Assembly (NCBI RefSeq): GCF_021568705.1
Contig: NZ_JAKGTH010000011.1
Span: 124,001 to 188,000, forward strand
Source of the DNA: Gillisia lutea
Lineage (GTDB): Bacteria; Bacteroidota; Bacteroidia; Flavobacteriales; Flavobacteriaceae
Length of the DNA: 64,000 nt
Direction of reading: 5' to 3'
The first letter of the stretch is position 1; each line of letters opens with the position of its first letter. This document shows positions 45,211 to 64,000 of the stretch, piece by piece. Under the pieces are notes generated by a model. It searched no databases. It saw nothing but the letters and a program-made list of their open reading frames with translations, and was not told the DNA's origin. Both the position numbers and the translations under genes were made by a program.

Positions 45211-45223
45211 GGTTGTGCCTTTT
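45202..45223 (+). terminator. Weak terminator-like hairpin over the rfbA stop
   Basis: Stem CACAAC / GTTGTG with a TAGG loop, followed by CC and only four T residues. The stop codon is in the loop. It may attenuate transcription into the next gene, which has its own -7 box. Confidence 0.4.
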
Positions 45224-45304
45224 GGCGGACAGTATTGACAGCTATTCATGAATTGTTTTACATTTCTTTAAGATATACAAACGCATGGCTTAAATTAGAA
45301 ATAC

Positions 45305-45312
45305 TATCTTTG
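45305..45312 (+). promoter_or_regulatory. Internal promoter -7 box before the WbpP-like gene
   Basis: TATCTTTG fits TAnnTTTG exactly, 31 bp upstream of the start codon; the -33 box is weak. It would start a second transcript of the sugar locus. Confidence 0.5.
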
Positions 45313-45343
45313 CAAATTCTAAAATTAATTTAAATAGTTATAA

Positions 45344-46339: not shown

Positions 46340-46405
46340 TAAACAAACACTTTGGTTCTCATCTCAGATTTGATTATGTGAGAATTTATAAATAATAAAA
46401 AAAAA

Positions 46406-47689
46406 ATGAACAACGATACAAAAATAGCAGTCATTGGTCTAGGATATGTAGGATTGCCTTTAGCAAGATTGTTTGCGTCCAAGTACCCTGTAATTGGTTT
46501 TGATATTAATCAGGACCGAGTTAATGAGTTAATGGGAGGGCATGATAGTACTTTAGAGGTTGAAGATGAACTGTTGGCATCTGCATTGGTAGAATTTCCT
46601 TCAGAAAAAAATGGTTTATACTGTTCGACCAATTTAGATGATATTACAAACTGTAACTATTATATAATCACGGTTCCTACCCCTGTAGACAAGAATAACA
46701 GGCCTGATCTAACACCATTATATAAAAGTAGCGAAAGTGTCGGGAAGGTTTTGAAAAAAGGAGATATCGTTATTTATGAATCTACTGTATACCCGGGAGT
46801 TACAGAAGATGAATGTGTGCCAGTACTTGAAAAAATAAGTGGACTTAGATTTAATGAAGACTTTTATGCTGGATATTCTCCAGAAAGAATTAATCCTGGC
46901 GATAAAGAGCACACTGTAGAGAAAATATTAAAGGTTACAGCGGGTTCTACTCCAGAAGTTGGGAAGAGGGTAAATGAACTCTATTCTAACGTAATTACTG
47001 CCGGAACGCATTTGGCGCCAACCATTAAAGTTGCTGAGGCCGCCAAAGTAATTGAAAATTCCCAAAGAGATATTAATATTGCTTTTGTTAATGAGCTCGC
47101 AAAGATTTTCAACATGATGGGTATTGATACACAAGATGTATTGGAAGCAGCAGGAACAAAATGGAACTTCTTGCCTTTTAAACCGGGTCTAGTTGGCGGG
47201 CACTGTATTGGGGTAGATCCATATTATTTAGCTCAGAAGGCTCAGGAGTTAGGTTACCATCCAGAAATTATATTGGCGGGTAGAAGAATGAATGACTCTA
47301 TGGGGCAGTATGTTGCTTCTGAAGTTGTTAAATTAATGCTTCAGAATGATCTTAAGGTAAAAGGTGCAAATGTTCTAGTTCTAGGTATTACTTTTAAAGA
47401 AAATTGTCCTGATGTGAGAAATACGAAAGTGGTTGATGTTATTCGCAATATGAAGGAATATGGAATGAATGTTATTATTTTTGATCCTTTGGCTAATCCG
47501 GAGGAAGTGGCGCATGAATATTCATTACCAACTACTAGAACTTTACCAAACGAAAAATTTGATACAATTGTTTTAGCAGTTTCACATAAGGAATTTTTGG
47601 ACATGGATTTGAATGGTCTAAAAAAAGCTAATGCTGTAGTTTACGATGTTAAAGGAGTTTTAGGGAATAAATGTGATAAAAAATTATAG
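46406..47689 (+). CDS. Nucleotide-sugar 6-dehydrogenase, WbpO/TviB-like
   Basis: A 427-residue UDP-sugar dehydrogenase that oxidises C6 of an N-acetylhexosamine nucleotide to the uronic acid. Visible are the NAD fold [36 protein letters not shown], the lysine/asparagine block [17 protein letters not shown], the catalytic cysteine in [12 protein letters not shown], and the C-terminal [16 protein letters not shown]. The SPERINPGD and [11 protein letters not shown] forms point to the WbpO/TviB group rather than to UDP-glucose dehydrogenase. It is followed, one base after its stop, by a true UDP-glucose dehydrogenase, so the locus makes two kinds of uronic acid. Confidence 0.9.
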
Positions 47690-47690
47690 A

Positions 47691-49085
47691 ATGAAGATTG
47701 AAAATATATGTTGTATTGGGGCTGGATATGTAGGCGGACCTACTATGGCAATAATTGCGCAAAAATGTCCACATATTAATGTGACAGTGGTAGATATTAA
47801 TGAAAAAAGGATCGCTGCTTGGAATGATGAAGATGTAAATAATATTCCAATCTATGAGCCTGGATTATCGGATATAGTAAAAGAGGCAAGAGGAAGGAAT
47901 TTGTTCTTTTCTACTGAAGTTGATAATGCAATAGACAAGGCTGACATGATCTTTATTTCCGTTAATACTCCAACCAAAACCTACGGGATGGGTAAGGGTA
48001 TGGCTGCAGATCTTAAATTTATCGAATTATGTGCTAGACAAATCGCGCGTGTCTCAACATCGGATAAAATTGTAGTGGAAAAATCGACATTACCTGTTCG
48101 AACAGCAGAAGCCTTAAAAAATATATTGGAGAACACTGGAAATGGTGTGAAATTTCAAATTCTTTCCAATCCAGAATTCTTAGCAGAAGGAACTGCGGTT
48201 GATGATTTATTAACTCCAGATAGGGTTTTGATAGGTGGAGATATTGATTCAGAAAAAGGTAAAGAAGCTGTGAACGCTTTGGTAGATGTTTACGCAAACT
48301 GGGTATCAAAAGAACATATTTTAACTACAAATGTATGGTCTTCAGAATTGTCTAAGTTAACAGCAAATGCATTTTTGGCTCAAAGGGTTTCAAGTATTAA
48401 TGCAATGAGCGAATTGTGTGAAAAAACTGGTGCAGATGTAAATGAAGTTGCCAAAGCGGTTGGAATGGATTCTAGAATAGGTTCCAGGTTTTTGCAATCT
48501 TCCGTTGGATTTGGAGGGTCATGTTTTCAAAAGGATATTTTAAATCTTGTTTATATAGCTAAATCTTATGGATTAGGAGAAGTTGCAGATTATTGGGAGC
48601 AAGTTATTATACTTAATGATCATCAAAAAAGACGGTTTGCGGAAAAAATAGTAAAGACTTTATTCAATACTGTTTCTGGAAAAAAAATAGCAATTTTAGG
48701 TTGGGCTTTTAAAAAAGACACGAATGATACAAGAGAATCTGCCGCTATTTATGTTGCAGATTATTTAATGAATGAGCAAGCGGAAATTATAGTCTATGAT
48801 CCTAAAGTGACTGAAGAGCAAATATATGCAGATTTAGATTATCTAGGTACAAGAAGTGAAAATGAAAATAGATCTTTATTAAAGGTTGTTAATACAGCGA
48901 AAGATGCATGTAGAGATTCGCATGCAGTTGCTGTATTAACTGAATGGGATGAATATAAAAAATTAGATTGGAAAGAAATTTACTCTAACATGTTGAAGCC
49001 AGCGTTTTTATTCGATGGAAGAAGATTATTAGAGCGTAAAGCAATGGAAGATATAGGTTTCGAGTTTTATGCAATCGGTAATTAG
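47691..49085 (+). CDS. ugd: UDP-glucose 6-dehydrogenase, long (animal/plant-like) subtype
   Basis: Makes UDP-glucuronic acid from UDP-glucose. The 464-residue protein starts at the ATG at 47691, one base after the previous stop. Blocks are [75 protein letters not shown], the catalytic [10 protein letters not shown], and the [14 protein letters not shown] domain. The GYVGGPT start and length resemble the eukaryotic-type enzymes more than the short bacterial Ugd. Coupled to the WbpO-like gene by position. Confidence 0.93.
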
Positions 49086-49098
49086 TTGATTTTGATTT

Positions 49099-50535
49099 AT
49101 GCTATTTAATTCTCTAGATTTTGCAATATTTTTACCTATTGTATTTATATTGTATTGGTTTGTATTTAATAACAACTTAAAATGGCAAAATGCTCTTATT
49201 GCTGTATCTAGTTATATATTTTATGGTTGGTGGGATTGGAGATTTTTAAGTCTAATATTATTTAGCACGATAATCGATTATTTAATAGGTATTGCGTTAT
49301 CAAAAGAATATTCTTTGTCAAAAAAGAAAATTTTATTGTGGGTCAGTATTTCGATAAACTTGGGTTTTTTAGGGTTTTTTAAGTACTATAATTTTTTCTT
49401 AGACAATTTCAAGTCTGCATTTAGCTTTTTTGGTAATGAAATAAATTCTAATTCTTTAGATATTATATTACCAGTAGGCATAAGTTTTTATACTTTTCAA
49501 ACACTAAGTTATACAATAGACATCTATAGAGGGAAATTAAAACCCACTACAAATTTTATTTCATTCGCAGCTTTCGTTAGTTTTTTTCCTCAATTAGTAG
49601 CTGGACCTATCGAAAGGGCAACGAACCTATTACCTCAGTTTTATAGAAAGAGAAAATTTGAATATTCCCAAGCTGTGGATGGATTAAGGCAAATTTTATG
49701 GGGGCTATTTAAAAAGATAGTTATTGCAGATAATTGTGCAGAGTATGCAAATATGATATTCAATCATTCTGATGACTATTCAGGGAGTACCCTTTTTATT
49801 GGAGCCATATTTTTCGCATTTCAAATTTATGGGGATTTTTCTGGTTATTCAGATATTGCTATTGGAACATCTCGTTTATTTGGTTTTAATCTTATGAGAA
49901 ATTTTGCATTTCCCTACTTCTCCAGAGATATTGCTGAGTTTTGGAGACGATGGCATATTTCGCTTTCTACTTGGTTTAGGGATTATTTATATATTCCACT
50001 TGGTGGTAGCAGGGGAGGAACGTGGATGAAGGTTAGAAATACATTTATAATTTTTATAGTAAGTGGTTTTTGGCATGGAGCCAATTGGACTTTTCTAATT
50101 TGGGGTTTCCTAAATGCACTTTATTTTCTTCCAGTGCTTTTAGCAAAAAGAAATAGAATGAATTTAGAGGTGGTTGCATATAATTCGAGTCTTCCAAGTT
50201 TAAAAGAGTTTTTTAATATAGTTTTAACTTTCGCGCTGACCACCTTTGCATGGATATTTTTTAGGGCAGAAAATGTTGGGCATGCATTTAATATTCTAAA
50301 AGAAATATTTTCTAATTCTTTTTTAAAGATTCCGACCGTGCTTCCATTTATGATTATTCTATTAACGATTTTCTTCATAATTGTTGAGTGGTTAGGAAGG
50401 AGAGATGAATACGCTATCGAGAAATTAGGGTTTAAAACTTCACGATATGCTAGATGGGGCTTCTATATGTTCATTGCAACATTGATCTTTCTTTTTGATG
50501 GAAAGGAACAGGCATTTATTTATTTCCAATTTTAA
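49099..50535 (+). CDS. MBOAT family membrane O-acyltransferase (copy 1)
   Basis: A 478-residue polytopic inner-membrane protein of the MBOAT group (AlgI/DltB/PatA type) that moves acetyl groups across the membrane for glycan O-acetylation. Motifs are LPVGISFYTFQTLSY, FFPQLVAGPIERA, FGDFSGYSD-like YGDFSGYSDIAIG, FWRRWHISLSTWF (His286) and the catalytic-type histidine in FWHGANWTF (His326). It is followed directly by an SGNH partner. A second, very similar MBOAT lies at 51544-52998, with the sequence aligned end to end and the central FPYFSRDIAEFWRRWHIS region identical. Confidence 0.93.
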   Translation: MLFNSLDFAIFLPIVFILYWFVFNNNLKWQNALIAVSSYIFYGWWDWRFLSLILFSTIIDYLIGIALSKEYSLSKKKILLWVSISINLGFLGFFKYYNFFLDNFKSAFSFFGNEINSNSLDIILPVGISFYTFQTLSYTIDIYRGKLKPTTNFISFAAFVSFFPQLVAGPIERATNLLPQFYRKRKFEYSQAVDGLRQILWGLFKKIVIADNCAEYANMIFNHSDDYSGSTLFIGAIFFAFQIYGDFSGYSDIAIGTSRLFGFNLMRNFAFPYFSRDIAEFWRRWHISLSTWFRDYLYIPLGGSRGGTWMKVRNTFIIFIVSGFWHGANWTFLIWGFLNALYFLPVLLAKRNRMNLEVVAYNSSLPSLKEFFNIVLTFALTTFAWIFFRAENVGHAFNILKEIFSNSFLKIPTVLPFMIILLTIFFIIVEWLGRRDEYAIEKLGFKTSRYARWGFYMFIATLIFLFDGKEQAFIYFQF

Positions 50536-50536
50536 T

Positions 50537-51460
50537 ATGAAAAGTTTTTTAATTAAAATATCGATGTTTTTGATGTTTCTAAGCTTAATAGCTATAGGAA
50601 TATTTCTATTAGCTGATGGGAATTCTGATTCATACTATACAAACTTCACCTCTTCTAAACAGAGTTCGCTTATATTAGGTACTTCAAAGGCTGCTCAAGG
50701 ACTCCAACCAGCGGTAATAAATGGAGTTCTAAATAGATCAGATGTGAATAATTTTGCATTTACCGTAGCCCACAGTCCTTATGGTCCAGTTTATTTGAAG
50801 GCAATTAAGAAGAAAATTGACACAAATACTAAGGATGGAATTTTTATCGTTACAGTAGACCCTTATAGTGTTTCTGGTAGACATAAAGATGCCAATGATG
50901 TAGGATTATTCAGAGAAAATGATAAATTTTTAGCAACGGTTAGCAGTGTTACATCTAATCCTAATTTTGAATATCTATATCAAGAATATTCTTATCCGTA
51001 CATTTATATACTTACTAAAAAGTGTGATTATATAGATGATGATTTTCTACATCCTGATGGTTGGAATGAGGTTAATATATCTATGAAACAAAAGGATTTT
51101 GAGGTAAGAAACAAATCAAAAATAAAATCTTACAAAAAACTATTAAAAGTTTACAAATTTTCAGACAAACGTTATGAATATTTTGAAAAAACAATTTCCT
51201 TTTTAAAAGATTACGGTGATGTTTATATAGTTCGTCTTCCTGTTTCAACTCCTTTTTTAGAAATGGAAAATAGTGTCTATAAGGAATTTGATAATAAAAT
51301 TACCTCTACTTCTTCTAAGTTTAATGTTCCATACTTGGATATGACTAAAGATGATAAAGAGTATGAATATACTGATGGTAATCACTTGTATAAAACATCA
51401 GGAGTCGAAGTTAGTACCCTAATTGCAAAATGGATTTTTAATCATAAAAATTTTAAATAA
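50537..51460 (+). CDS. SGNH-type acyltransferase partner (AlgJ/AlgX/DltD-like), pair 1
   Basis: A 307-residue protein with one N-terminal membrane anchor (FLIKISMFLMFLSLIAIGIFLL) and a periplasmic SGNH-like domain. Block I is LILGTSKAAQG (nucleophile candidate Ser50) and the catalytic Asp-His pair is in YTDGNHLYKTSG near the C-terminus. I start at the ATG at 50537, one base after the MBOAT stop; the frame extends upstream over the MBOAT end. It would receive the acetyl group from the MBOAT and place it on the glycan. Low similarity to the other SGNH protein at 53003. Confidence 0.8.
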   Translation: MKSFLIKISMFLMFLSLIAIGIFLLADGNSDSYYTNFTSSKQSSLILGTSKAAQGLQPAVINGVLNRSDVNNFAFTVAHSPYGPVYLKAIKKKIDTNTKDGIFIVTVDPYSVSGRHKDANDVGLFRENDKFLATVSSVTSNPNFEYLYQEYSYPYIYILTKKCDYIDDDFLHPDGWNEVNISMKQKDFEVRNKSKIKSYKKLLKVYKFSDKRYEYFEKTISFLKDYGDVYIVRLPVSTPFLEMENSVYKEFDNKITSTSSKFNVPYLDMTKDDKEYEYTDGNHLYKTSGVEVSTLIAKWIFNHKNFK

Positions 51461-51543
51461 GAGATTTTCATTATGTTCTAATTGATGGCTTATGCTAATA
51501 TTCGATCATAAAGAAGATTTTATCACTTTTACTCTCATAATAA

Positions 51544-52998
51544 ATGTTATTTAATTCTCTAGATTTTGCTATATTTTTGCCAGTGGTGTTTATTCTTTAT
51601 TGGTTTGTTTTTAATAGAAATTTAAAGCATCAGAACTTATTAGTAGCTGTTTCTAGTTATGTATTTTATGGTTGGTGGGATTATAGGTTTCTATCGTTAA
51701 TTATATTTAGTACGATATTAGACTACTGGATTGGTAGAGGAATTGTTCATACATCTCTCCCAAAACAGAAGAAAATATTACTCTGGATTAGTATAATAAT
51801 TAATCTTGGTTTTCTTGGAATTTTTAAATATTATAATTTTTTTATAGATAATTTCAGAAGTGCCTTTTCTTTTCTTGGGTATGAAATAAATACCAATTCA
51901 CTCAATATTATATTACCGGTTGGAATTAGTTTTTACACTTTTCAAACTTTAAGTTACAGTATTGATGTATATAAAGGTAACCTGAAGCCCACTAATGATT
52001 TTATTAAGTTTGCTGCTTTTGTAAGCTTCTTTCCTCAATTAGTCGCCGGGCCTATTGAAAGAGCAACTAATCTACTGCCCCAATTTTATAAGAGACGAAG
52101 ATTTTCTTATGAAAATTCAGTCAATGGTCTTAGACAAATTTTATGGGGCTTGTTTAAAAAGGTAGTAATAGCAGATAATTGTGCGGTGTATGCTAATTAT
52201 ATTTTTGAGAATTCTTTAGAATTACCTGGAAGCACACTTTTTATTGGGGCACTTCTTTTTACAATACAGATATATTGTGATTTTAGTGGATACTCTGATA
52301 TAGCAATTGGTACCTCTAGATTATTTGGATTTAATCTTATGAAGAATTTCGCGTTCCCCTATTTTTCTAGGGATATCGCTGAATTCTGGAGGAGATGGCA
52401 TATTTCACTATCTACATGGTTTAGAGATTACCTTTATATCCCCTTAGGAGGAAGTAAAGGTGGTGTACTAATAAAAATAAGAAATACTTTTATAATTTTT
52501 ATTGTTAGTGGTTTTTGGCATGGTGCAAATTGGACCTTTATTGTTTGGGGAACCTTAAACGCTATTTACTTTCTCCCTCTACTGCTGTCTAATAAAAATC
52601 GAAATAATCTTGGTATAGTTGCTGAAAATAACAACATGCCAAGTTTAAAGGAATTATTTCAAATGCTAGGGACATTCCTTTTGACAATTTTTGCTTGGAT
52701 CTTTTTTCGAGCTGAGAGTTTAAATCATGCAATAAGTTATATTGGTGAAATTTTATCTTGGTCTTTGTTTAATCCCCCATCTTCTTTAGACGTTATAGGG
52801 TTGAAAAAGATTTTAATATTTTTAATTGTACTATTTTTTATGATAGAATGGTTTGGAAGAAAAGGAGATTATGCGTTGGATAATATAATTTTCTTAAAAT
52901 CAAAATTGGTGAGATGGGGCTTTTATAGTTTTATTGTTTTTTTGATAGGTATGTTTATGTATACAGAAAAAACCAATTTTATATATTTTCAATTTTAA
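51544..52998 (+). CDS. MBOAT family membrane O-acyltransferase (copy 2)
   Basis: A 484-residue MBOAT aligned nearly gap-free to the copy at 49099-50535. It starts with the same MLFNSLDFAIFLPVVFILYW pattern and keeps the AGPIERATNLLPQFY, FWRRWHISLSTWF and FWHGANWTF blocks with both histidines. It differs most in the loop before the last helices and at the C-terminal membrane segment. The MBOAT-SGNH gene order is the same as in copy 1, so the pair was probably duplicated as a unit, with faster divergence of the SGNH partner. Confidence 0.93.
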   Translation: MLFNSLDFAIFLPVVFILYWFVFNRNLKHQNLLVAVSSYVFYGWWDYRFLSLIIFSTILDYWIGRGIVHTSLPKQKKILLWISIIINLGFLGIFKYYNFFIDNFRSAFSFLGYEINTNSLNIILPVGISFYTFQTLSYSIDVYKGNLKPTNDFIKFAAFVSFFPQLVAGPIERATNLLPQFYKRRRFSYENSVNGLRQILWGLFKKVVIADNCAVYANYIFENSLELPGSTLFIGALLFTIQIYCDFSGYSDIAIGTSRLFGFNLMKNFAFPYFSRDIAEFWRRWHISLSTWFRDYLYIPLGGSKGGVLIKIRNTFIIFIVSGFWHGANWTFIVWGTLNAIYFLPLLLSNKNRNNLGIVAENNNMPSLKELFQMLGTFLLTIFAWIFFRAESLNHAISYIGEILSWSLFNPPSSLDVIGLKKILIFLIVLFFMIEWFGRKGDYALDNIIFLKSKLVRWGFYSFIVFLIGMFMYTEKTNFIYFQF

Positions 52999-53002
52999 TA
53001 TT

Positions 53003-53914
53003 ATGAGGTCTTTTCTATTAAATTTATTACTATTTATTGTCTTCGTTGTCATAACCTATTTCATAGGTATATTAATGGTAGGCGATATTTTGATGAGAAG
53101 AACTAATGCAAATATTATGTACGAGCCAGAGAGTGGTTTTAATGCTATTAGATTTTCTGAAGCAAATGAAATTGAAGAATTAGACGTGCTCTTTATAGGT
53201 TCTTCTCATTCTTATCGAAGTTTTGATCCAAGAATTTTAAATCAGTACAAACTTAGAACTTTTAATTTAGGAACTAGCTCTCAAACTCATGTTCAGACCA
53301 ATTATATTTTAAATGAATATCTAAATGAGTTAAACCCTAAATTAATAGTTTACGAAGTATATCCTAATACTTTCATGAGCGACGGAGTGGAGTCCACTCT
53401 GAATTTGTTATCTTCGCACGATATGGATTTTTCTCTAGCTAAGATGTCAATAGCTACTGGTGACCTTACAGTATATAATTCATTTATCAATATTATTTCT
53501 TATAAAATAACTGGCAGAAAAGTAAAAGAAAATTATCCTACAGAAGAAAAATATATTAATGGAGGTTATGTAGAAACCGTGGGCATTACCAATTTCAGTA
53601 AAGTTAAAGATAAGTATTGGAAGCCTAGGCAAGAACAATTAAATGCTTTCGAAGAGAATTTGGAGCTTATTAAGGCTAGAAATATTCCTTATATTTTAGT
53701 AGAAGCACCTTACACTTATAATTATCTTAATCGAGATGAAATAGATAAATATTTAAATGATAAGGGTGAGTTTTATAATTATAATAAATTAATAAAATTG
53801 GATGAAAATATATATTTTAAAGATTATCATCATTTAAACCATGCTGGAGCAGCTATCTTAACAACTACTATTGCGCCGGTTTTGGTGAAAAAAATGACAC
53901 AGACAAATTATTAA
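53003..53914 (+). CDS. SGNH/DltD-like acyltransferase partner, pair 2
   Basis: A 303-residue protein starting 4 bp after the second MBOAT. One N-terminal membrane helix (LLNLLLFIVFVVITYFIGILMVG) is followed by a periplasmic SGNH domain with DVLFIGSSHSYRSFDP (block I, GSSHS at 66-70) and a C-terminal KDYHHLNHAG (Asp-His pair). The GSSHSYRSFDPRIL form resembles DltD-like and other uncharacterised SGNH proteins paired with MBOAT enzymes. It lacks close similarity to the 50537 protein, suggesting a different acceptor sugar or acyl site. Confidence 0.8.
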   Translation: MRSFLLNLLLFIVFVVITYFIGILMVGDILMRRTNANIMYEPESGFNAIRFSEANEIEELDVLFIGSSHSYRSFDPRILNQYKLRTFNLGTSSQTHVQTNYILNEYLNELNPKLIVYEVYPNTFMSDGVESTLNLLSSHDMDFSLAKMSIATGDLTVYNSFINIISYKITGRKVKENYPTEEKYINGGYVETVGITNFSKVKDKYWKPRQEQLNAFEENLELIKARNIPYILVEAPYTYNYLNRDEIDKYLNDKGEFYNYNKLIKLDENIYFKDYHHLNHAGAAILTTTIAPVLVKKMTQTNY

Positions 53915-54031: not shown

Positions 54032-55759
54032 ATGTATATCATCAAAATATCAAATAAAAAAAAAGACTTTTGTTTTCCAGAACTGGAGAATGAAAAAATC
54101 ATCTACTTTGAAAACTTTATAATAAATATTAATTATGATGATTTTTTAAATAATTATAAAGAAAGTACGACTGAAGTAAGTTTTGTAGAAACTCCAACTG
54201 GGAAATCTTCCCTAAGAGCACAAGACAATTCTGAATTGGATTTTGTAAAGATGTTATTGAATAAGGTTACAGGAAACTTAGAGATTGAAAAGAAAATATT
54301 ATCTGGAAGAAAAGTTTATTATCATTACTCGGAAAATCAAATCATTTTTTCCAGTCATATCAATTTGTTAAGAAAAGCTGGAGTGGAACTTATTGAAAAT
54401 TCGGAAATCTTACCAGAGTTTTTTGTACATCGGTTTGTTACGGCACCTAATACATTTTATAAAAATATTTATCAGTTAAAACCAAGTGAAACAATAGTTA
54501 TTAAATTTTCAAACCGTACACTTGATTTAGTGAAGGATGTAGATTATTCACCTTTTAAAAAAAGCAGCAACAAGGAATTGGTTTATTCTCATGGTGATAA
54601 CTATCAAGAGAAAATTAAAAAATTATTAGAAAAGAGTTTAACTAATTTAAGTCCTGTAAAAGATAGAGTGACGAGTATGTTAAGTGGAGGTTTAGATTCT
54701 TCTATACTTTATAAAATATTATATCACAAATTTAATATTTCTACATCTTTTTCTACATGCTATCCATTTGACAATAAAAAAATTGGCGAAGCTCAGTATG
54801 CTAAAACTGCTGCAGATTATTTTAAAGCAGATCACCAACACAAAGACTTCTCCAATAACGACTATGTTCGGGGAGTTATAGAATCTATATATTTGGCAGA
54901 AGAACCGCTGTTCCATTTACAAACCGTAATGTTCAATCTACTGTTTAAAAATATGCCAAATAATAAAATTGTTATTTCTGGACAGGGGGCCGATGGATTT
55001 TTCGGCTCACCTAGTCACAACCGTTTATATAATTCAAACAAATTAAAATATAGATTATTATCTTTTTCTCCATTGCCCAAAATAATATGGAAATTTGGTA
55101 ACTATAATCTTTCAAAAGAGTTAAATATTGCTAAACGTTACAGGAATACCAGATATCTTCCTTTGAAGGACAAGAACCATTTTATTTGGTCTATAGGAAA
55201 TCAAGGGGATAAGAAATGGGTTGCTAAATATTTCAAAGTATCAGAGGAGGAGATTAATTCTAATAGACTTCAACTCGTTGAAAGTCTATCGGATAAATCT
55301 ATGTATGAAATAATGACAAGTTTAGATTTTATAGGCGATAAATCGGCAACAGAGGGTATTTGGTCAAAAATTGCTGAAGCACATAAAAATATTATATATT
55401 ATCCTTTTAATAATGAAGAGTTGATAAAATACAATATGTCTCTTCCGTGGAACTTGAAATTAAAAACTATGAAAGGGTTATTACATTACGTTGCAAGACA
55501 AAATGATGTGCCAGATTTCATAATTAATAGAAAAAAGAAAGGTTTTTTTGTTTCACCAACAGATTGGCTTAGTCATGGTATAATGAACTCTCTAATACCA
55601 TTAGCTGGAAAAGTAATAGATATTGAGGTTTTAAAAGAATTACAAGAGACTTCTAAAGGTTTTTTATTTTGGAATTTTTTGAATTATGCTATTTGGAAAA
55701 GGCTATTTATCAACAATGAATCTGTTGACAGTCTTATAAATGAATTAGATTTGAAATAA
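54032..55759 (+). CDS. Asparagine-synthase-like amide ligase with a degenerate glutaminase half
   Basis: A 575-residue protein of the asparagine synthase family. The synthetase half is intact: the PP-loop SMLSGGLDSSIL (SGG at 218-220), YAKTAADYFKADHQH, SGQGADGFFG, and a C-terminal LPWNLKLKTMKGLLHYVARQNDVPDFIINRKKKGF. The N-terminal class-II glutaminase half is degenerate: the chain starts MYIIKISN and lacks the required N-terminal cysteine. I infer an ATP-dependent ligase that amidates a uronic acid (or another carboxyl sugar) with ammonia or an amine, as WbpS-type proteins do in the P. aeruginosa O6 locus. Not an amino-acid housekeeping enzyme by position. Confidence 0.82.
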   Translation: MYIIKISNKKKDFCFPELENEKIIYFENFIININYDDFLNNYKESTTEVSFVETPTGKSSLRAQDNSELDFVKMLLNKVTGNLEIEKKILSGRKVYYHYSENQIIFSSHINLLRKAGVELIENSEILPEFFVHRFVTAPNTFYKNIYQLKPSETIVIKFSNRTLDLVKDVDYSPFKKSSNKELVYSHGDNYQEKIKKLLEKSLTNLSPVKDRVTSMLSGGLDSSILYKILYHKFNISTSFSTCYPFDNKKIGEAQYAKTAADYFKADHQHKDFSNNDYVRGVIESIYLAEEPLFHLQTVMFNLLFKNMPNNKIVISGQGADGFFGSPSHNRLYNSNKLKYRLLSFSPLPKIIWKFGNYNLSKELNIAKRYRNTRYLPLKDKNHFIWSIGNQGDKKWVAKYFKVSEEEINSNRLQLVESLSDKSMYEIMTSLDFIGDKSATEGIWSKIAEAHKNIIYYPFNNEELIKYNMSLPWNLKLKTMKGLLHYVARQNDVPDFIINRKKKGFFVSPTDWLSHGIMNSLIPLAGKVIDIEVLKELQETSKGFLFWNFLNYAIWKRLFINNESVDSLINELDLK

Positions 55760-55807: not shown

Positions 55808-57100
55808 ATGAATATTAAACAGGCAAGTATAACTGGGGGTCAAATTCCTACAGGACAGGTTAGAGTAAGTGGAGCAAAAAATTCAGCAACTAAGTTGTTA
55901 GCTGCTTCTTTAATTTGTGATAAGGAAGTGATATTAAATAACTTCCCTACAGAATTAGTAGATGCTAATTATAAATTTGAATATATTCAAGACATAGGTG
56001 GTATTCTGCAGATTGATAGAGATAAAGATCAGGTTTGTATAGACTCTTCTAAATTATCAAGTGAAAATCTAACTCATTTTAATTATGCTTTTAGAACAAC
56101 TTATTTGCTAGTACCTGGTTTAATTAAAAAGGATGGAAAAGCTAAAATACCTTATCCTGGGGGGTGTAAAATAGGTCAGCGAGGTTATGATCTGCACATG
56201 ATGGTATGGGAGAAATTAGGAGCTAGTGTAAAAGAATATGAAGATCATATTGAGGTGATTTCTGAAAACGGATTTGTAGGAACAGAAATTAATTTTCCAA
56301 TTTCTACTATTGGTGGTACAGAATCTGCACTTATTTGCGGTGCTATAGCTAAAGGCAAAACCACAATTAGAAATGCCTACATTTCTCCAGAAGTTGAAGA
56401 TCTAATAATTTTTTTAAGAGCCTCAGGAGTGAATATCAAAGTTGTAGGAAATAGCTTTATTGAAATAGAAGGTCAGGAGTACATTCAAGGCTCAATTTAT
56501 TCTATTATGCCAGATAGAATAGAAGCGTTAACCTGGATTGTTTACGGAATTCTTTCAAAAGGAGATATTACTATTTTAGATGTTCCTTTCAACACAATGG
56601 ATATACCTTTAAAACATTTAGAGGAAGCTGGTATAGATTTTTACCATAATAGTAAAAATATAAGGATTTCTAATGATTGTTTAGTCAATGGTATTATTCA
56701 ACCATTTGAACTCGCAACAGGGACACATCCTGGAATTATTTCTGATATGCAGCCATTTTACACTTTGTTGGGTTTACATGCGGATGGATTTAGTAGGATA
56801 TTCGATTATAGATATCCAGAAAGAATAAAATATTGTGAAGAACTTTCAAAATTCTATGCTGGAAGATTGATTTTTGAAAGTGGAAAGATCACAACGGAAG
56901 GAAATAATAATCTTGTCCCATCTGCAGCAGAGGTAACTTCTACTGATCTAAGAGGAAGTATGGCTTTAGTTATTGCTGCATTAATTGGGGATGGCGTATC
57001 TATAATTAATAATGTAGACATGGCTTTGAGAGGATATAATAACCTTCAGAAAAAGCTTTCTGAATTAGGGGTAGAAATTGAAATTAGTGACCAAAAATGA
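55808..57100 (+). CDS. MurA-type UDP-N-acetylglucosamine 1-carboxyvinyltransferase paralogue
   Basis: A 430-residue EPSP-synthase-fold enzyme that transfers enolpyruvate from PEP to the 3-OH of UDP-GlcNAc. Catalytic parts are present: SGAKNSATKLL (Lys24, Asn25), PGGCKIGQRGYDLH (Cys120, the fosfomycin-target position) and ISDMQPF (Asp313). It lies inside the sugar locus and overlaps the next gene, murB-like, by 4 bp (ATGA). From memory, the housekeeping MurA of flavobacteria starts with a different pattern, so this looks like an acquired, dedicated paralogue that feeds a lactyl-ether sugar into the surface glycan. It may act on a UDP-GalNAc-type sugar instead. Confidence 0.85.
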   Translation: MNIKQASITGGQIPTGQVRVSGAKNSATKLLAASLICDKEVILNNFPTELVDANYKFEYIQDIGGILQIDRDKDQVCIDSSKLSSENLTHFNYAFRTTYLLVPGLIKKDGKAKIPYPGGCKIGQRGYDLHMMVWEKLGASVKEYEDHIEVISENGFVGTEINFPISTIGGTESALICGAIAKGKTTIRNAYISPEVEDLIIFLRASGVNIKVVGNSFIEIEGQEYIQGSIYSIMPDRIEALTWIVYGILSKGDITILDVPFNTMDIPLKHLEEAGIDFYHNSKNIRISNDCLVNGIIQPFELATGTHPGIISDMQPFYTLLGLHADGFSRIFDYRYPERIKYCEELSKFYAGRLIFESGKITTEGNNNLVPSAAEVTSTDLRGSMALVIAALIGDGVSIINNVDMALRGYNNLQKKLSELGVEIEISDQK

Positions 57101-57954
57101 TATTAAAATTAAACCAAGATCTAACGCTTTATAATAATTATAGAGTGAAATCTGTATGTAAGAGAGCATTTTTTCCCCAAAATGAAGAGGATTTTATTGA
57201 TTTGTACAAAGAAAATATAAATACCAAAAAAATAATTTTAGGTGGTGGTTATAATGTTATTCTCTCTAAACAAACATACAATGAAGATTTCTTACTCATA
57301 GGAGAAACTTTTTCTAAATACAATGTTGTTGATAATATTATTGAAGCTCAAGCAGGAATAGAAATGAAAAAAATGAGTGAAATAGCTTTAGCTCATAATC
57401 TTTCTGGTTTAGAGGTTTTTTACGACATTCCAAGCTCACTGGGTGGTGCTATTGTTATGAATGCAGGGGCTAGCGGTTCCGAGATCAAAGATCATTTTTT
57501 AAAAGCCAGATACTTAGATCTAGATGATTTAAAAATTAAGGAAATATCTAAAGAGGAAGCTAGTTTTGAATATAGAAATTCTTTTTTTCAAAAAAACACG
57601 AACAAAATTGTATTAAAAGTATGGTTAAAATTAGCTGCTGGTGATCCTGTTTTAATTAAAAGTAAAATGGATGAAATAAAAACTTCAAGATGGGCTAAAC
57701 AACCAAAAGATTATCCAAATGCAGGAAGTGTTTTTAAACGCCCTGATGGGTTTTATGTAGGGACTATGATTGAAGAATTAGGTTTAAAGGGTTTTTCTGT
57801 AGGAGGAGCACAGGTCTCTAGAAAGCATGCAGGTTTCATTATTAACTATAATAATGCTACAGGAGACGATATTTTAAATCTTATTGAAGAGATACAGAAT
57901 AGAGTTTATAAGGCATATAATGTTAACCTAGAAGTTGAACAGCGTATTATATAG
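57097..57954 (+). CDS. MurB-type UDP-N-acetylenolpyruvoylglucosamine reductase paralogue
   Basis: A 285-residue FAD enzyme that reduces the enolpyruvyl ether to a lactyl ether using NADPH. The FAD block is ILGGGYNVIL (Tyr where Ser is usual). Then come IPSSLGGAIVMNAGASGSEI, FEYRNSFF (Arg160), NAGSVFKRP (Ser211, proton donor) and a C-terminal glutamate in LEVEQRII (Glu281). All catalytic positions of the short (type II) MurB are thus kept. The ATGA overlap with the MurA-like gene shows that the two act in sequence, giving a UDP-MurNAc-type product. The role in the surface glycan is inferred from position. Confidence 0.85.
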   Translation: MILKLNQDLTLYNNYRVKSVCKRAFFPQNEEDFIDLYKENINTKKIILGGGYNVILSKQTYNEDFLLIGETFSKYNVVDNIIEAQAGIEMKKMSEIALAHNLSGLEVFYDIPSSLGGAIVMNAGASGSEIKDHFLKARYLDLDDLKIKEISKEEASFEYRNSFFQKNTNKIVLKVWLKLAAGDPVLIKSKMDEIKTSRWAKQPKDYPNAGSVFKRPDGFYVGTMIEELGLKGFSVGGAQVSRKHAGFIINYNNATGDDILNLIEEIQNRVYKAYNVNLEVEQRII

Positions 57955-57962: not shown

Positions 57963-59081
57963 ATGACCATATTTTATATAATAGCGAATCTAAAAAAACG
58001 TAATACGGGTAAGGGAGGGAGTTTTCATAGTGCTGCGACTATTGCCAAAGCAATGTCTAATAAACATGAGGTTTTTTTCTTTGTAATTGGTGATTTTGAC
58101 TCTGAAGCGGTAGCTCATATTTTAAATAACAATTATATTTACTTAGACACTTCAGGATTTTTAGGAAAAATCGAAGCTTTATACTTATATATTAAGTATT
58201 TATTTAAATACAAACCTTCTATAACCCATGTCTTTGGAAACAATGTACTCTTTCTTACTTATTTAGCACAGGTAATAACAAAAAGTAGAACTATTTTTAC
58301 GAAATGCGGAAAAGGGAACTCAGGTTTTAGTGCAAATCACTTTCATAATATAATAACGATATCTTATGAGAATTTTGATTATTTAGATCAGAATAAATCA
58401 AAGTTTTCCTATCCTATTAAGAACTTAGGATATTTTCCCAACCGAATCTTGCCTTTCGATCAAGATAAATATTTAATTCACTCATTGAAGACTTTAATAA
58501 ATTATCATCCGAATGACTTTATTATTTTAAGAATTGGCCGGCTTAACTCCTATTATCAAGAAGGTATTATCGCTAGCATTAATTTTTTTAAAAATAATTA
58601 TGACAATAATAGCAATGTTAAATTATTGCTCGTGGGCCACAGAGATGAAAGTTTAGATTTAACTAAATACGAAGGCATCAAAAATGTTTTTATTATAGAC
58701 ACACCAGAGTTTACTAAAAATCCTAAAACTATTTTATCAATTGCTGATATTAAAATAACCAATGGAAGAACTACCATGGAGGCTTGTTACACTGGAGGTA
58801 ATATTGCTATACCTACAAAGAAACACGGCTTGGTACGATTGTCTAAAGATAACTGGCAGGAGATGCTTCACTATAACTTCTCAGAAAGAGTAGAATTGTC
58901 TGAAAAATTATTAATTTCAGAAGTGTATGATGAAAATTTCCCTATGGAAATATTTCATGACAACTTCAACGCAAATTCAATTGTAGACGGAGTTACTATG
59001 TTTTACCAAAATAGTTCTTATGACAAAATGAGCATTAAAAATTGGATAATTTGGGGACGAATTTTCTTTAATAAATTTTAG
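57963..59081 (+). CDS. GT-B-type glycosyltransferase
   Basis: A 372-residue protein with a GT4-like layout. The N-terminal part has IIANLKKRNTGKGGSFHSAATIAKAM, a glycine-rich acceptor loop. The C-terminal Rossmann half begins near residue 180 with DFIILRIGRLNSYYQEGI and VKLLLVGHRDES, and has a donor-binding NGRTTMEACYTGG (Glu in the EX7E-like position). No membrane helix. It probably adds one sugar to the lipid-linked repeat unit in the cytoplasm. The donor is unknown. It begins 8 bp after the murB-like stop. Confidence 0.75.
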   Translation: MTIFYIIANLKKRNTGKGGSFHSAATIAKAMSNKHEVFFFVIGDFDSEAVAHILNNNYIYLDTSGFLGKIEALYLYIKYLFKYKPSITHVFGNNVLFLTYLAQVITKSRTIFTKCGKGNSGFSANHFHNIITISYENFDYLDQNKSKFSYPIKNLGYFPNRILPFDQDKYLIHSLKTLINYHPNDFIILRIGRLNSYYQEGIIASINFFKNNYDNNSNVKLLLVGHRDESLDLTKYEGIKNVFIIDTPEFTKNPKTILSIADIKITNGRTTMEACYTGGNIAIPTKKHGLVRLSKDNWQEMLHYNFSERVELSEKLLISEVYDENFPMEIFHDNFNANSIVDGVTMFYQNSSYDKMSIKNWIIWGRIFFNKF

Positions 59082-59084: not shown

Positions 59085-60875
59085 TTGAAAAAAATAATTG
59101 AAAAATATTTTGAGAGTCTTGTTTATTTTTATAGAGCTCTAAAATATAAGGTCTTTATAATACTATTACTAAGTGTTTTAATTGGTTTTCTTGATGGATT
59201 AGGTTTAACTATGTTTTTACCGTTGTTAACCATGGTTAGTGATACAGGAAGTGGACAAAATGGCGACACAGAAAATCTAAATTTTTTGTTGAAGTTTATA
59301 ACCGATTTAAACATAGATCTTACTCTAATTAGAATACTTATTCTAATGGCATGTTTTTTTATAGCTAAGAGTATTGTAGTTTATTTATATGAGGTATATA
59401 AAGTTAATGTGCAACAGCAATTTATAACTAAAATAAGATTTAAGAATCTTAACAGGTTAAATAATCTAGCTTTTAAATACTTTATAAGCTCAGACCCGGG
59501 TAGAATTCAGAATACAATGACTGGGGAAGTAGATCGTGTGGCACGAGCATTTTTGACTTATTTTACGGCTTTTCAAGCTGGAATTATGGTTGTAGTCTAT
59601 ATGTATTTTGCTTTTACTATAGATACTAAATTTGCAATATTAGTTTCTATTGGAGGCGTTATAACAAATTTTATATATAAAAAGATTTACAAAAACACAA
59701 AGGGAGCATCAAGGAAATTGACTGGTGAAAATAATATATTTCAAAGCTTGGTTATTCAGCATGTTTCCAACTTTAAATACTTAAAAGCCACTGGAAGTAT
59801 TTCCAAATATTCTAATAAATTAAAAAGTTCTATTGATAAGATTGAGATAAGCAATGTTAAAATAGGAAAATTGGCAGCGTTCTTAACAGCGTCGAGGGAA
59901 CCTATAGTAGTGTTAGTTGTAGTCTCAGTAATTTATATTCAAACTTCTCTTTTAGGATCTTCCTTAGGCCCTATTTTGATAAGTCTGTTGTTTTTTTATA
60001 GAGCATTGAATTTTTTAATGCAAATGCAAAATCAATGGAATAAGTTTCTAGCAGTTTCTGGCTCTATGGAAAATATGACTCGTTTTAGTGATGAATTGAA
60101 ACTTAATAAAGAAGAGAATGGATCAGTAGCAATCAAAGATAGAGTAACCAAAATAGAATTAAATGAAGTATACTTTAATTACGGCTCCAATGTAATTATT
60201 AATGGGGTCAGCTTAGATATTCCTCGTCATAAAACAATTGCCTTTGTTGGAGAGAGTGGTAGTGGAAAGACAACATTAGTAAATCTTATAGCAGGACTTT
60301 TGCCTATAGACCGAGGAGAATTATTAATAAATAACAATAATATAGCCGATATAAATTTAAATACATATCAATCTAAAATTGGGTATATTACTCAGGACCC
60401 TGTAATATTTAACGACACTATTTTTAATAATATTACATTTTGGGATGAAAAGTCTGATTCTAATATCAAAAAATTTAACTCTGCAATTCAGAAAGCGGCT
60501 ATTTTTGATTTTGTTCTTGAGCAATCCGAGCGTGAAGATACGTTGTTGGGAAGTTTTGGAAGTAATTTGAGTGGAGGCCAAAAACAGAGAATTTCTATTG
60601 CAAGAGAATTATATAAGGATGTTGAAATACTTATACTTGATGAAGCTACTAGTGCATTAGATTCTGAAACAGAGAAAGAGATACAGAAGAACATGGATAG
60701 TCTTCAAGGGGATTATACGATATTAATTGTTGCTCATCGTATTTCTACAATTAAAAATGCCGATAAAATTGTCATAATGAATAAAGGAAAAATTGAAGAT
60801 GACGGAAGTTTTCAAAAGCTTTATGAGAATTCACCATATTTTAAGAAACTTGTATCACTACAGGAGCTTTCATAA
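59085..60875 (+). CDS. ABC transporter, fused permease-ATPase (MsbA/PglK-like flippase)
   Basis: A 596-residue ABC exporter half-transporter. The first 310 residues hold about six membrane helices (VFIILLLSVLIGFLDGLGL first). The ATPase has Walker A GESGSGKTTL, the LSGGQKQR signature, Walker B ILILDEATSALD and the H-loop VAHRIST. The start is a TTG at 59085, 4 bp after the previous stop; the next ATG would remove the first helix. No Wzx/Wzy is seen so far in the locus, so this could flip the lipid-linked repeat unit, as PglK does. Lipid A export (MsbA proper) is the alternative. Confidence 0.85.
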   Translation: MKKIIEKYFESLVYFYRALKYKVFIILLLSVLIGFLDGLGLTMFLPLLTMVSDTGSGQNGDTENLNFLLKFITDLNIDLTLIRILILMACFFIAKSIVVYLYEVYKVNVQQQFITKIRFKNLNRLNNLAFKYFISSDPGRIQNTMTGEVDRVARAFLTYFTAFQAGIMVVVYMYFAFTIDTKFAILVSIGGVITNFIYKKIYKNTKGASRKLTGENNIFQSLVIQHVSNFKYLKATGSISKYSNKLKSSIDKIEISNVKIGKLAAFLTASREPIVVLVVVSVIYIQTSLLGSSLGPILISLLFFYRALNFLMQMQNQWNKFLAVSGSMENMTRFSDELKLNKEENGSVAIKDRVTKIELNEVYFNYGSNVIINGVSLDIPRHKTIAFVGESGSGKTTLVNLIAGLLPIDRGELLINNNNIADINLNTYQSKIGYITQDPVIFNDTIFNNITFWDEKSDSNIKKFNSAIQKAAIFDFVLEQSEREDTLLGSFGSNLSGGQKQRISIARELYKDVEILILDEATSALDSETEKEIQKNMDSLQGDYTILIVAHRISTIKNADKIVIMNKGKIEDDGSFQKLYENSPYFKKLVSLQELS

Positions 60876-60914: not shown

Positions 60915-61784
60915 ATGTCTAAAATTTCCATTACTATACCTACACACAATAGAGCTCATTTAATATCGCGTGCTATAAATAGTGTGAAAAAGCAGACATT
61001 TGAAAATTGGCAGTTAATAATTGTAGATGATGGATCGACAGATAATACTGAGGATGTAATTTTACCATTTTTAGAAGATGAACGGATTAATTATCTTAAA
61101 AAGGAAAATTCTGGTGCAGCCCATTCACGCAATGTTGGAGTGGAATATTCAACAGGAGATTTCATTACATTTCTAGATAGTGATGATGAAGCTAAACCGG
61201 ATTGGTTAGATAAAATTTATAATGAAATAACTTCAAAAATGGCATCCGTTATTTGTTGTGGTTGTGAAACTATTGACGAGAATGGAGATCTAATTAAAAT
61301 AAATCTACCTTCCAAAACAAAAATTTTTCCTGATACTATCTATAAGATGACTAATGGTGGTGTTTTTACACTTACCAAAACCATTTTCAATGAAATAGGT
61401 GGATTTGATAATTGTTTGAAATCTGGACAACATACTGAATTATCTTTTAGGTTAATTCCATACTTGAAAGAGAATAAAATTGAAATTCATAATCTACAAG
61501 AATCGCTTATAAAGATACATATTCATAAGGGGGAGAGAATTAGAGGTAATCCGGAAATGAAGTTTCAGGGAACCACTTATTGTTTAAAAAAGCACTCATC
61601 TTTTTTTGAAAACAGAAATCTATTAAGAGCAGATTATGAAGGAACAGTTGGGATGAATGCTTATTTAACCAACAGGAAGCTAGAATCGATTAAATATTTC
61701 ACTAAATCATTCCTAAGTAAGCCTTCTATAAAGAGGTTAGTCCGAATTCCTGTGTACTTCCTTAAAAATATAATAAAAAATTAA
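60915..61784 (+). CDS. Glycosyltransferase family 2
   Basis: A 289-residue GT-A enzyme. The N-terminal core shows ISITIPTHNRAHLISRAINSVKKQTFENW, the nucleotide-binding IIVDDGSTDNTED, the AAHSRNVGVEYSTGDFITFLDSDDEA block with the DxD-like DSDD, and a later GGFDNCLKSGQHTELSFRL. One hydrophobic stretch near the C-terminus (LVRIPVYFLKNIIKN) may touch the membrane. Transfers one sugar from a nucleotide donor; specificity cannot be read. Confidence 0.92.
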   Translation: MSKISITIPTHNRAHLISRAINSVKKQTFENWQLIIVDDGSTDNTEDVILPFLEDERINYLKKENSGAAHSRNVGVEYSTGDFITFLDSDDEAKPDWLDKIYNEITSKMASVICCGCETIDENGDLIKINLPSKTKIFPDTIYKMTNGGVFTLTKTIFNEIGGFDNCLKSGQHTELSFRLIPYLKENKIEIHNLQESLIKIHIHKGERIRGNPEMKFQGTTYCLKKHSSFFENRNLLRADYEGTVGMNAYLTNRKLESIKYFTKSFLSKPSIKRLVRIPVYFLKNIIKN

Positions 61785-61791
61785 ATATTTA

Positions 61792-62664
61792 ATGAAGGAT
61801 CTTTTTTACAATTTATTAATACCTTTTTCTAATAGAGTAGCTGCTTTTTCTTCTTCTAAGTTAAGAGTTTTAGCTTATCACACGATAGATGATCCATATT
61901 TATTTGAAAAGCAACTAAAATATTTAAAATCTTCATATAAGGTAATAGGAATTTTTGAATTGGAACAGTTTCTATTTGATGGGGCAGATCTACCTAAGAA
62001 TGCTGTATTAATAACTTTCGACGATGGGGATCTTTCGGTATTAGATTTTGGTTTGCCTCTACTAAAAAAATATAATATGCCTTCTGTAATGTTCGTAATT
62101 ACTGGTTTGATAGATTCTAAGAAAACCTTTTGGTGCAGGTGGGTTGAATTAGCAATACAGAATCAGGGAAAATCTTACGCTGAAGCAAGAGTAGTTGTTA
62201 ATAGATTGAAAAAAATGGACAATGAAGAGCGTGTTGCCTATTTAAATAAATTGGAACCTATAGTTTCTAAACAACTTACTAGAAATGATATTTTAAAAAT
62301 GCACTCTGAAAAGATGTTTGTAGGTAATCATACTCATACGCATCCAATGGTAGACAAATGCACAAGTGAAGAATTGCAGGGTGAACTTAAAACTTCAAAA
62401 GACTCTTTTAAAAATTGGGGTCTTCCAGGTTATCAAATTTTTGCTTATCCCAATGGAAATTGGGATGCTAAATCTGAAAAAATTCTTATTGATAATGAAA
62501 TAAAAATGGCATTTTTGTTTGACCATCAATTAAATAAAAAAGATGTTAACCCTATGAGGATTTCAAGAATTAGAGTGAATTCTGATACTAAATTACATGA
62601 ATTTAAAGTAAAAGTTTCCGGTTTACATTCTAAGTTAATGAAATTCAAAGAAAATATTACATGA
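61792..62664 (+). CDS. Polysaccharide deacetylase family (NodB-like)
   Basis: A 290-residue NodB-fold deacetylase. The catalytic base/metal block is ITFDDGD (75-80) and the metal histidines are in GNHTHTHP (180-184). An early RVLAYHTID and a later FAYPNGNWD complete the family pattern. It probably removes an N- or O-acetyl group from a sugar of the glycan; no signal peptide is seen, so a cytoplasmic lipid-linked or nucleotide-sugar substrate is likely. It overlaps the next gene by 4 bp (ATGA). Confidence 0.88.
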   Translation: MKDLFYNLLIPFSNRVAAFSSSKLRVLAYHTIDDPYLFEKQLKYLKSSYKVIGIFELEQFLFDGADLPKNAVLITFDDGDLSVLDFGLPLLKKYNMPSVMFVITGLIDSKKTFWCRWVELAIQNQGKSYAEARVVVNRLKKMDNEERVAYLNKLEPIVSKQLTRNDILKMHSEKMFVGNHTHTHPMVDKCTSEELQGELKTSKDSFKNWGLPGYQIFAYPNGNWDAKSEKILIDNEIKMAFLFDHQLNKKDVNPMRISRIRVNSDTKLHEFKVKVSGLHSKLMKFKENIT

Positions 62665-63536
62665 TCCTAATTAGAGAAATAGATTATGCAGAAGATGTTT
62701 CCGAGATCATTGATTTAATTCATTTGGGTCTTAGTGAAAAAAACACAGAAGCTTCGTTTTTATGGAAACACTTTGAGAATCCCTTTGGGAAATCTTTGGG
62801 GCTATTGGCATGTGATAAAACAAAAATAGTTGGTGTTAGAATGTTTATGTTTTGGGAATTCAAAAAAGGAGATAAAGTTGTTAAAGCAGTTCGTCCTGTA
62901 GATACCATCATACACCCGGATTATAGGGGCCAAGGTTTATTTAAGGATCTTACTTTGGCAGGATTAAAAAAGTTTATCTCTAAGTATAGTTTGGTCTTCA
63001 ATACTCCTAACAATAATAGCTTACCTGGTTACATTAAAATGGGGTGGCAACATTATTCTAAAGAACTATATTTTAACTTAGGAATCGTATTGCCTTCATT
63101 AAATAGAAATATTTCTATTCGGAAAATTGAAAATAATTCTTTCAATTTAAGAGATGTAAATTTAGAATATGACTCTTTTAGAACTCATATTTCTAAAGAC
63201 TTTTTGAACTGGCGTTATAGAGATTCAAATTATAAGATAGTATTGATTAATATTAATGAGATATCAGTTATAGTTATCTATAGAATTGAACTGCTAAAAG
63301 GTTTAAAGACTTTAATTTTAATTGATTATATAGGAGACAATAGCGTAATTACTCCTTCTCTTAGAAAATTGGCTAAAATGGAGAAAGTGTTTTTGTTTCA
63401 TTATTTAGATAATCAAAATATAAAGTTAATGCTTTTTAAACGGAGAGGAAAATCTGTTGTAGTTTATCGTGATGATAATTTTAAAATAATGGAAGATATA
63501 CAATTTTCTTCCGGTGACCTAGAAGGTCGCCTTTAA
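62661..63536 (+). CDS. GNAT-family N-acyltransferase
   Basis: A 291-residue protein with a GNAT domain in the first 150 residues: IVGVRMFMFWEF, VRPVDTIIHPDYRGQGLFKDLTLAGL (acyl-CoA loop RGQGLF) and FNTPNNNSLPGYIKMGW. The second half is an unassigned beta-rich region with DFLNWRYRDSNYKIVLI. It is coupled to the deacetylase by an ATGA overlap. A deacetylase followed by an acyltransferase suggests replacing an acetyl with another acyl group on an amino sugar; this is inference from order. Confidence 0.8.
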   Translation: MILIREIDYAEDVSEIIDLIHLGLSEKNTEASFLWKHFENPFGKSLGLLACDKTKIVGVRMFMFWEFKKGDKVVKAVRPVDTIIHPDYRGQGLFKDLTLAGLKKFISKYSLVFNTPNNNSLPGYIKMGWQHYSKELYFNLGIVLPSLNRNISIRKIENNSFNLRDVNLEYDSFRTHISKDFLNWRYRDSNYKIVLININEISVIVIYRIELLKGLKTLILIDYIGDNSVITPSLRKLAKMEKVFLFHYLDNQNIKLMLFKRRGKSVVVYRDDNFKIMEDIQFSSGDLEGRL

Positions 63537-63553
63537 TTTTTTCCCAAGTACTT

Positions 63554-64000
63554 ATGAAAATAATTATCTTAATAAATTCTCTTGGAGCTGGTGGAGCTGA
63601 ACGTTCTATGGTGGAATTTGCAAAATTTTTATATTTAAGGAATGATGTTAAGTTAAATATCGTTTGTTTAAAACATAAAAAAATAGGACTTGAAGAAGAA
63701 GTTGAGAATTTTGGAATAAACACTATTTACTATGAAGGAAGTAGTAATTTAAAATCCAAAATAAATTTCGTTGTAGATATAATCAAAAAAGAAAAACCGG
63801 ATATTATACATTCTGTTTTAGCTGAATCTAATCTTGTTTTAAGATTATCAAGATTATTAACTCACCATGGTAAGGTCATCCAAAGTTTAGTAAACACTCC
63901 TTATTCATTAGAAAGGAAAAAAGATAGTCAATTATCTTGGCAAAAATTTCAACTTGCCAAAAAGATTGATCAATGGTCTGCAAGATTAACTTCGAATATT
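63554..64000 (+). CDS. Glycosyltransferase (GT4-like), N-terminal part, cut by window edge
   Basis: The first 149 residues from the ATG at 63554 (MKIIILINSLGAGGAERS) are read to the right edge. The INSLGAGGAERSMVEFAKFL opening is the hallmark of GT4 glycosyltransferases, followed by KKEKPDIIHSVLAESNLVLRL. The donor-binding C-terminal domain is outside the window. The locus clearly continues. Confidence 0.85.
   Translation, partial: MKIIILINSLGAGGAERSMVEFAKFLYLRNDVKLNIVCLKHKKIGLEEEVENFGINTIYYEGSSNLKSKINFVVDIIKKEKPDIIHSVLAESNLVLRLSRLLTHHGKVIQSLVNTPYSLERKKDSQLSWQKFQLAKKIDQWSARLTSNI

Follow-up and report, generated by a model that had tools for sequence, protein, structure and literature searches.

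The window analysed here, the whole stretch of 64,000 nucleotides from Gillisia lutea, carries a murA-like and a murB-like gene embedded in a surface-polysaccharide locus. Coordinates refer to the window, and the features of the locus within it are as follows.

43253 to 49085, forward strand: nucleotide-sugar genes, namely dTDP-glucose 4,6-dehydratase, an RmlA-like gene (by eye), a TviC-like epimerase, a TviB-like UDP-GlcNAc 6-dehydrogenase and a UDP-glucose 6-dehydrogenase-like gene
49099 to 53914, forward strand: two MBOAT acyltransferases, each with a probable partner (321 and 303 aa); the first is DltB-like and the second clusters with the first
54032 to 55759, forward strand: asparagine-synthetase-like amide ligase with an Asn_synthase domain
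55808 to 57100, forward strand: surface-polysaccharide MurA, UDP-sugar enolpyruvyl transferase (430 aa, Cys120 type, signature Thr98/Tyr127/Arg335)
57097 to 57954, forward strand: surface-polysaccharide MurB, enolpyruvyl-sugar reductase (285 aa, short form)
57963 to 59081, forward strand: GT4-type (GT-B fold) glycosyltransferase, assigned from the Pfam matches of family members, a structure model and a profile
59085 to 60875, forward strand: ABC transporter (membrane domain and ATPase), likely a flippase
60915 to 64000, forward strand: GT2 glycosyltransferase, polysaccharide deacetylase, GNAT-like acyltransferase and a further glycosyltransferase-like gene (by eye), the last running past the window

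The original prediction described an intact MurA and MurB that overlap by ATGA between an amide ligase and a glycosyltransferase, and this was borne out in each respect. Both ORFs are complete and share four bases, ATGA, in the ORF list; MurA carries Lys24, Cys120 and Asp313, and MurB keeps Tyr159-Arg160, Ser211 and the C-terminal Glu281. The flanks were supported by the Asn_synthase domain upstream and, downstream, by a GT-B model and Glycos_transf_1 matches in family members. MurA scored 335.7 bits against the NCBIfam subfamily model NF006873 (cut-off 297) and 325.9 bits against the TIGR01072 murA equivalog, below the cut-off of 392.7 and therefore indicative of a divergent MurA, though its fold and family profile are those of the MurA/EPSP group. 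MurB scored 199.3 bits against TIGR00179 (cut-off 144.5) and has FAD_binding_4 and MurB_C domains together with the catalytic Arg, Ser and Glu. In alignments, Lys24, Cys120 and Asp313 were invariant in 31/31 locus MurAs, the catalytic residues Lys22, Asn23, Cys/Asp115, Arg120, Asp305 and Arg397 (1UAE numbers) were kept in the same 31 rows, and Arg160, Ser211 and Glu281 were invariant in 31/31 locus MurBs.

We assessed the distribution of the pair by a contig scan, which recovered 29 related loci that by record titles belong to Bacteroidota (16), Pseudomonadota (9), Verrucomicrobiota (3) and Cyanobacteriota (1); a MurB lay in the same locus in 28, the exception being L006. With the window, G005, G629, a second G083 pair, G1027, G1230 and four plasmid loci (four of eight matched plasmid records, H4-H7 being left out) the set comprised 39 loci, genome G469 being that of L019 and counted once, and murA and murB occurred together in 38 of these. 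Where loci with the pair were annotated, glycosyltransferases, flippases or other polysaccharide genes stood alongside, in unrelated phyla. Among 60 genomes, the window's own and its relatives, 59 had a MurA match, but the locus type was found only in the own genome and in G005 (91% identical), which makes two out of the 16 genomes from the genus; all other matches reached at most 31–36% identity. At a threshold of 1e-90, and among the best four candidates per genome, locus-type MurA occurred in 2/395 genomes of the phylum and 3/397 of the family (own genome counted); at the same threshold it occurred in 2/196 genomes of the genus of V. furnissii and 2/394 of the order of G1027 (query genome counted). 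This threshold picks the MurA type of the window and can miss second-type MurAs, as the Rhizobium plasmid copies show with values of 1e-75 to 1e-84. A search of an E. coli collection gave no locus-type match and left E. coli's own murA unmatched too, so that it excludes close copies only. The pair occurs rarely and patchily, as a module of surface-polysaccharide loci, across four phyla. One Rhodospirillales MAG (G083) holds two surface-type MurA-MurB pairs, one per subtype (L111, on contig C37, and a second on C31), and on a plasmid of Qingshengfaniella alkalisoli (L122:5956-9193) metabolic genes surround an apparent minimal cluster of murA, murB and a single GT2 gene.

Separate copies of both genes, complete and on other contigs, were found in the same genome, where the original prediction had proposed to look for them. 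The second murA (C8:343290-344591, 437 aa) encodes a protein with 30% identity to the window MurA and with GGD at the active-site loop where the window MurA has GGC, and the second murB, on contig C10, encodes a longer form (337 aa) than the window MurB. These copies rule out that the window pair is the housekeeping set. A recent duplication of the genome's own copies is ruled out by the identity of only ~30% between the pair and those copies, by the other MurB form and by the trees. The window pair is neither the sole nor the orthologous copy in its genome, and it has the make-up of capsule paralogues, a pair in a capsule/EPS locus with housekeeping copies elsewhere. All 29 genomes that supplied the related loci had a further MurA, which passed the cut-off in 28, and at least two MurB matches occurred in 27 of the 29, the exceptions being G060, with only a housekeeping-type copy, and G069, with only a locus-type copy. 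Housekeeping murA and murB lay within 10 kb of each other in 3/28 genomes that have both (G062, G072 and G078), a count made by eye in which contig breaks may hide some.

Phylogenies were built with nine repeat loci left out (L001, L003, L005, L098, L100, L101, L103-L105). The comparison with housekeeping copies placed 31 locus MurAs on one side of a 100/99 branch with a long stem and 40 housekeeping MurAs on the other, so that surface MurAs form a separate branch. The MurAs of L075 and L110 formed a second, sister type in a quick tree that carried long-branch warnings. Locus MurBs fell in three places of the MurB tree: the first group held most of the Bacteroidota, the second most of the Pseudomonadota with two Verrucomicrobiota and two Bacteroidota, and the third Cerasicoccus and Nodosilinea. 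Three label changes are needed, also by starred branches alone, in a tree with long-branch warnings in which gain and loss are not distinguishable. In the G629 locus, a second-type MurA is paired with a MurB close to that of the window (~60% identity). Because the MurBs lie in three places and the G629 pair is mixed, the pairing appears to have been kept without being one frozen operon. A single MurA branch accompanied by several MurB lineages fits selection for the two-step chemistry, or for its reductase step.

We found that Thr98, Tyr127 and Arg335 (window numbers) occur in 39/39 surface MurAs and 0/40 housekeeping MurAs in the alignment, and Pro337 in 39/39 and 2/40, respectively. Eight of the 39 rows (L075, L110, L118, L120-L124) lay outside the 31 from which the signature columns were derived, and all rows were chosen by similarity to surface MurAs, such that the signature describes the branch and is not an independent test. 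The fosfomycin position also differed, with Cys in 39/39 surface MurAs (Cys120 in the window) and Asp in 26/27 housekeeping MurA rows of the phylum, the exception being L058, a long-branch MAG row with Cys. Natural Cys-to-Asp forms of MurA are fosfomycin-resistant in Mycobacteria and Chlamydia, according to a passage of PMC6801904. Given this split between surface Cys and housekeeping Asp, fosfomycin is a possible selective probe of surface-glycan synthesis in the phylum.

In our interpretation, the pair forms a two-step pathway to a lactyl ether, dedicated to a locus of the capsule/EPS type and most likely acting on UDP-GlcNAc; we put the probability of this at about three in four. MurA would move enolpyruvate from PEP onto a UDP-N-acetylhexosamine, probably UDP-GlcNAc, at its 3-OH, and MurB would reduce the enol ether to a lactyl ether, so that UDP-MurNAc or a close analogue results. 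From there, a glycosyltransferase encoded in the locus, with 57963-59081 as the candidate, would add the lactyl sugar to a lipid-linked repeat unit that would be flipped and polymerised. The interpretation builds on the completeness and family membership of both genes, on the housekeeping copies found elsewhere, on the polysaccharide genes around the pair and on the conserved pairing; the acceptor sugar, the transferase and the presence of the sugar in the glycan are inferred. The original prediction of a muramic-type sugar as a glycan building block is probably right, and is the best reading because the extra copies are tied to a surface-polysaccharide locus; the trees, the pairing and the chemical precedent of Vibrio vulnificus also support it. 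The L006 locus, without a MurB nearby, is a counterpoint.

The simplest choice of acceptor, and the most likely one, would be UDP-GlcNAc, with UDP-MurNAc or a near relative as the product, yet the altered sugar site of MurA could mean another acceptor. We compared 28 residues that docking tables in PMC10816260 and PMC8587927, taken together, list for the 1UAE site, a docking list and not a contact map; with the long-branch rows L058 and L074 left out, three of these were fixed differences between surface and Cys-type housekeeping MurAs, and 12 between surface and Asp-type MurAs. One listed residue, 1UAE position 327 (window Arg335), is Val, Ile or Met in housekeeping MurAs and Arg in 39/39 surface MurAs, and Glu188 is replaced by Ser, Thr or Arg in the surface rows checked. 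The Arg at this site, the strict division of the three signature residues, the TviB/TviC-like genes of the window locus and one nucleotide-sugar dehydrogenase cluster with members in 9/30 loci would all suit the same two-step chemistry on a different acceptor, be it UDP-GalNAc, a uronic acid (UDP-GlcNAcA, for example) or some other NDP-sugar, with a correspondingly different lactyl-ether sugar as the product. We regard this as unlikely. No nucleotide-sugar enzyme cluster occurred in more than 11/30 loci, covering up to ~10 kb on each side, so that the acceptor should be a common nucleotide sugar; the recruitment of MurBs from separate places in the tree suggests a substrate near MurB's normal one; and the three differences from the Cys type match in number those by which the two housekeeping groups differ from each other.

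The AlphaFold model of the window MurA had a mean pLDDT of 91, with the active-site loop (118-127) under 50, and its best fold match by E-value was MurA with UDP-GlcNAc (3kqj, TM-score 0.86 on the model's length). TM-scores ranged from 0.84 to 0.90 for the MurAs listed and from 0.74 to 0.79 for AroA, and were 0.85–0.86 for NikO, the nikkomycin enolpyruvyl transferase, which acts on UMP as stated in a section of PMC6801904. NikO resembles the window protein as a MurA-like enolpyruvyl transferase outside peptidoglycan, but differs in its UMP substrate and in its identity to the window MurA (21–22%, vs ~30% for MurAs). The predicted fold is that of a MurA-like enzyme and, with NikO nearly as close, does not identify the acceptor.

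The genes might instead be extra peptidoglycan enzymes, a backup or stress supply of UDP-MurNAc whose place in the locus is incidental, since the MurA keeps the peptidoglycan-type catalytic set and second MurAs serving peptidoglycan are known in Firmicutes. The company of glycosyltransferases, flippases and polysaccharide genes in unrelated phyla, the rare and patchy occurrence of the pair and the position of its MurAs apart from the 40 sampled housekeeping MurAs make this very improbable. That housekeeping copies simply moved into the locus can be given practically no credit, since the genome carries another, complete murA and murB elsewhere.

If the pair supplies a lactyl sugar, the adjacent glycosyltransferase is the candidate to transfer it in those loci that have its family, as its linkage to surface MurAs suggests. 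The 57963-59081 product itself had no Pfam or NCBIfam match; Glycos_transf_1 matched 5/9 scanned members of its family, and its predicted structure is of the GT-B type, close to BshA and further GT4 enzymes. A nine-member profile matched 14/39 surface-MurA loci, below which the scores dropped from 153 to 36 bits. The count includes the nine loci supplying profile rows as well as near-copies (window/G005; L015/L022), and since nine loci of the set span less than 15 kb (L120 just 4.3 kb), the gene could lie outside them. The family was matched in the own genome and in 0/295 other genomes of the phylum (296 sampled, best six candidates per genome), and a control profile from another GT4 group of the same loci matched 188/188 genomes. 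It was not found in 14/14 further surface-MurA genomes, a comparison that included no positive genome as a control. Loci without the family must use other enzymes for the transfer. In Adhaeribacter (L018:13461-15806), the family occurs as part of a longer protein of 782 aa.

The amide ligase ahead of the pair showed no glutaminase domain in the Pfam scan. Its product starts MYIIKIS, with no Cys at residue 2, as in the G005 counterpart (MYLIKIS), and therefore lacks a glutaminase nucleophile there; the enzyme may couple a sugar acid of the glycan to an amine or amino acid. In Nodosilinea, too, the pair is directly preceded by an Asn_synthase protein (L030:7235-8980). The window MBOAT acyltransferases cluster with ones in L012 and L024, and their tandem arrangement is conserved in G005. 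A member of the ABC transporter cluster (59085-60875) lay within 5 kb of MurA in 10/30 compared loci.

The locus starting at 43253 extends to ~93 kb in the contig (window coordinates) and comprises sugar-nucleotide genes, MBOAT pairs, glycosyltransferases, two ABC transporters, a NeuB-like synthase and two similar Wzy-like proteins (by eye), with Wzc-type, initiating glycosylphosphotransferase and Wza-like (by eye) genes further along the contig. All 24 genes from 43253 to 71305 have same-order counterparts in G005, which has one extra gene there, and the genes from 84125 to 95998 have G005 counterparts as well. The 11 genes from 72775 to 84052 had no counterpart in the G005 stretch at 1e-8. 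This interval (contig C11; L114, L115) includes the NeuB-like synthase and the second ABC transporter, its flanking genes are directly adjacent in G005, and it is a second glycan module that was gained or lost. The first 43 kb have a G+C content of 35.7%, against 30–32% from 43 to 85 kb, a drop that would be compatible with horizontal transfer.

An extra murA/murB in a capsule locus and a muramic-acid capsule are already known from V. vulnificus, a precedent that the original prediction leaves unmentioned. Work by Nakhamchik et al. in 2010 reportedly placed paralogues, murA_CPS and murB_CPS, in the capsule locus of strain ATCC 27562; both genes are said to be functional in E. coli, and mutants reportedly still made capsule, which implies that housekeeping enzymes could supply the sugar. 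That locus is like the window in its extra murA/murB, a likeness of gene content, but belongs to another phylum and has a pair that was reportedly dispensable for the capsule. A Vibrio genome in our set, G1027, has consecutive wecA-like (by eye), murA, murB and flippase-like genes, which resembles the reported murA_CPS/murB_CPS locus; the Vibrio copies compared were those of G1027 and V. furnissii. The peptidoglycan enzymes MurA (EC 2.5.1.7) and MurB (EC 1.3.1.98) have families, fold and catalytic residues in common with the window pair, but the genome's own copies share only ~30% identity with it, and the branch, the signature residues, the locus and, in 26/27 housekeeping MurA rows of the phylum, Asp in place of Cys120 set them apart. 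As given in part of a review, N-acetylmuramic acid and an amide-linked serine occur in the capsule of ATCC 27562 (PMC7247339), and its locus is conserved in Shewanella putrefaciens 200 (PMC7247339, citing Nakhamchik et al. 2010). A terminal alpha-D-MurNAc is described for the lipooligosaccharide of Psychrobacter arcticus 273-4 in a portion of PMC4515632, a further likeness as MurNAc on a surface glycan, which may draw on housekeeping UDP-MurNAc. In NMR spectra, ether-linked lactyl groups give signals near 1.4 ppm (CH3) and 4.4 ppm (CH) (PMC9912281). We found no publication on the surface-MurA branch as a whole in the open-access literature, which is weak evidence of absence. New here are the breadth across phyla, the MurA signature and the linked transferase family.

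More broadly, the Thr98/Tyr127/Arg335 branch might be a neofunctionalised MurA line whose product is a lactyl-ether nucleotide sugar different from UDP-MurNAc, or else UDP-MurNAc made without feedback control, partly with its own transferase family, as a mobile acidic-lactyl-sugar module across phyla, a possibility that we hold only tentatively. The three-residue mark separates surface-glycan MurAs, which bear cell-wall names in the annotated records examined, from housekeeping MurAs. The dedicated lactyl-ether pathway predicts muramic-type sugars in the capsules or EPS of further bacteria, and muramic acid in environmental samples need not stem from peptidoglycan.
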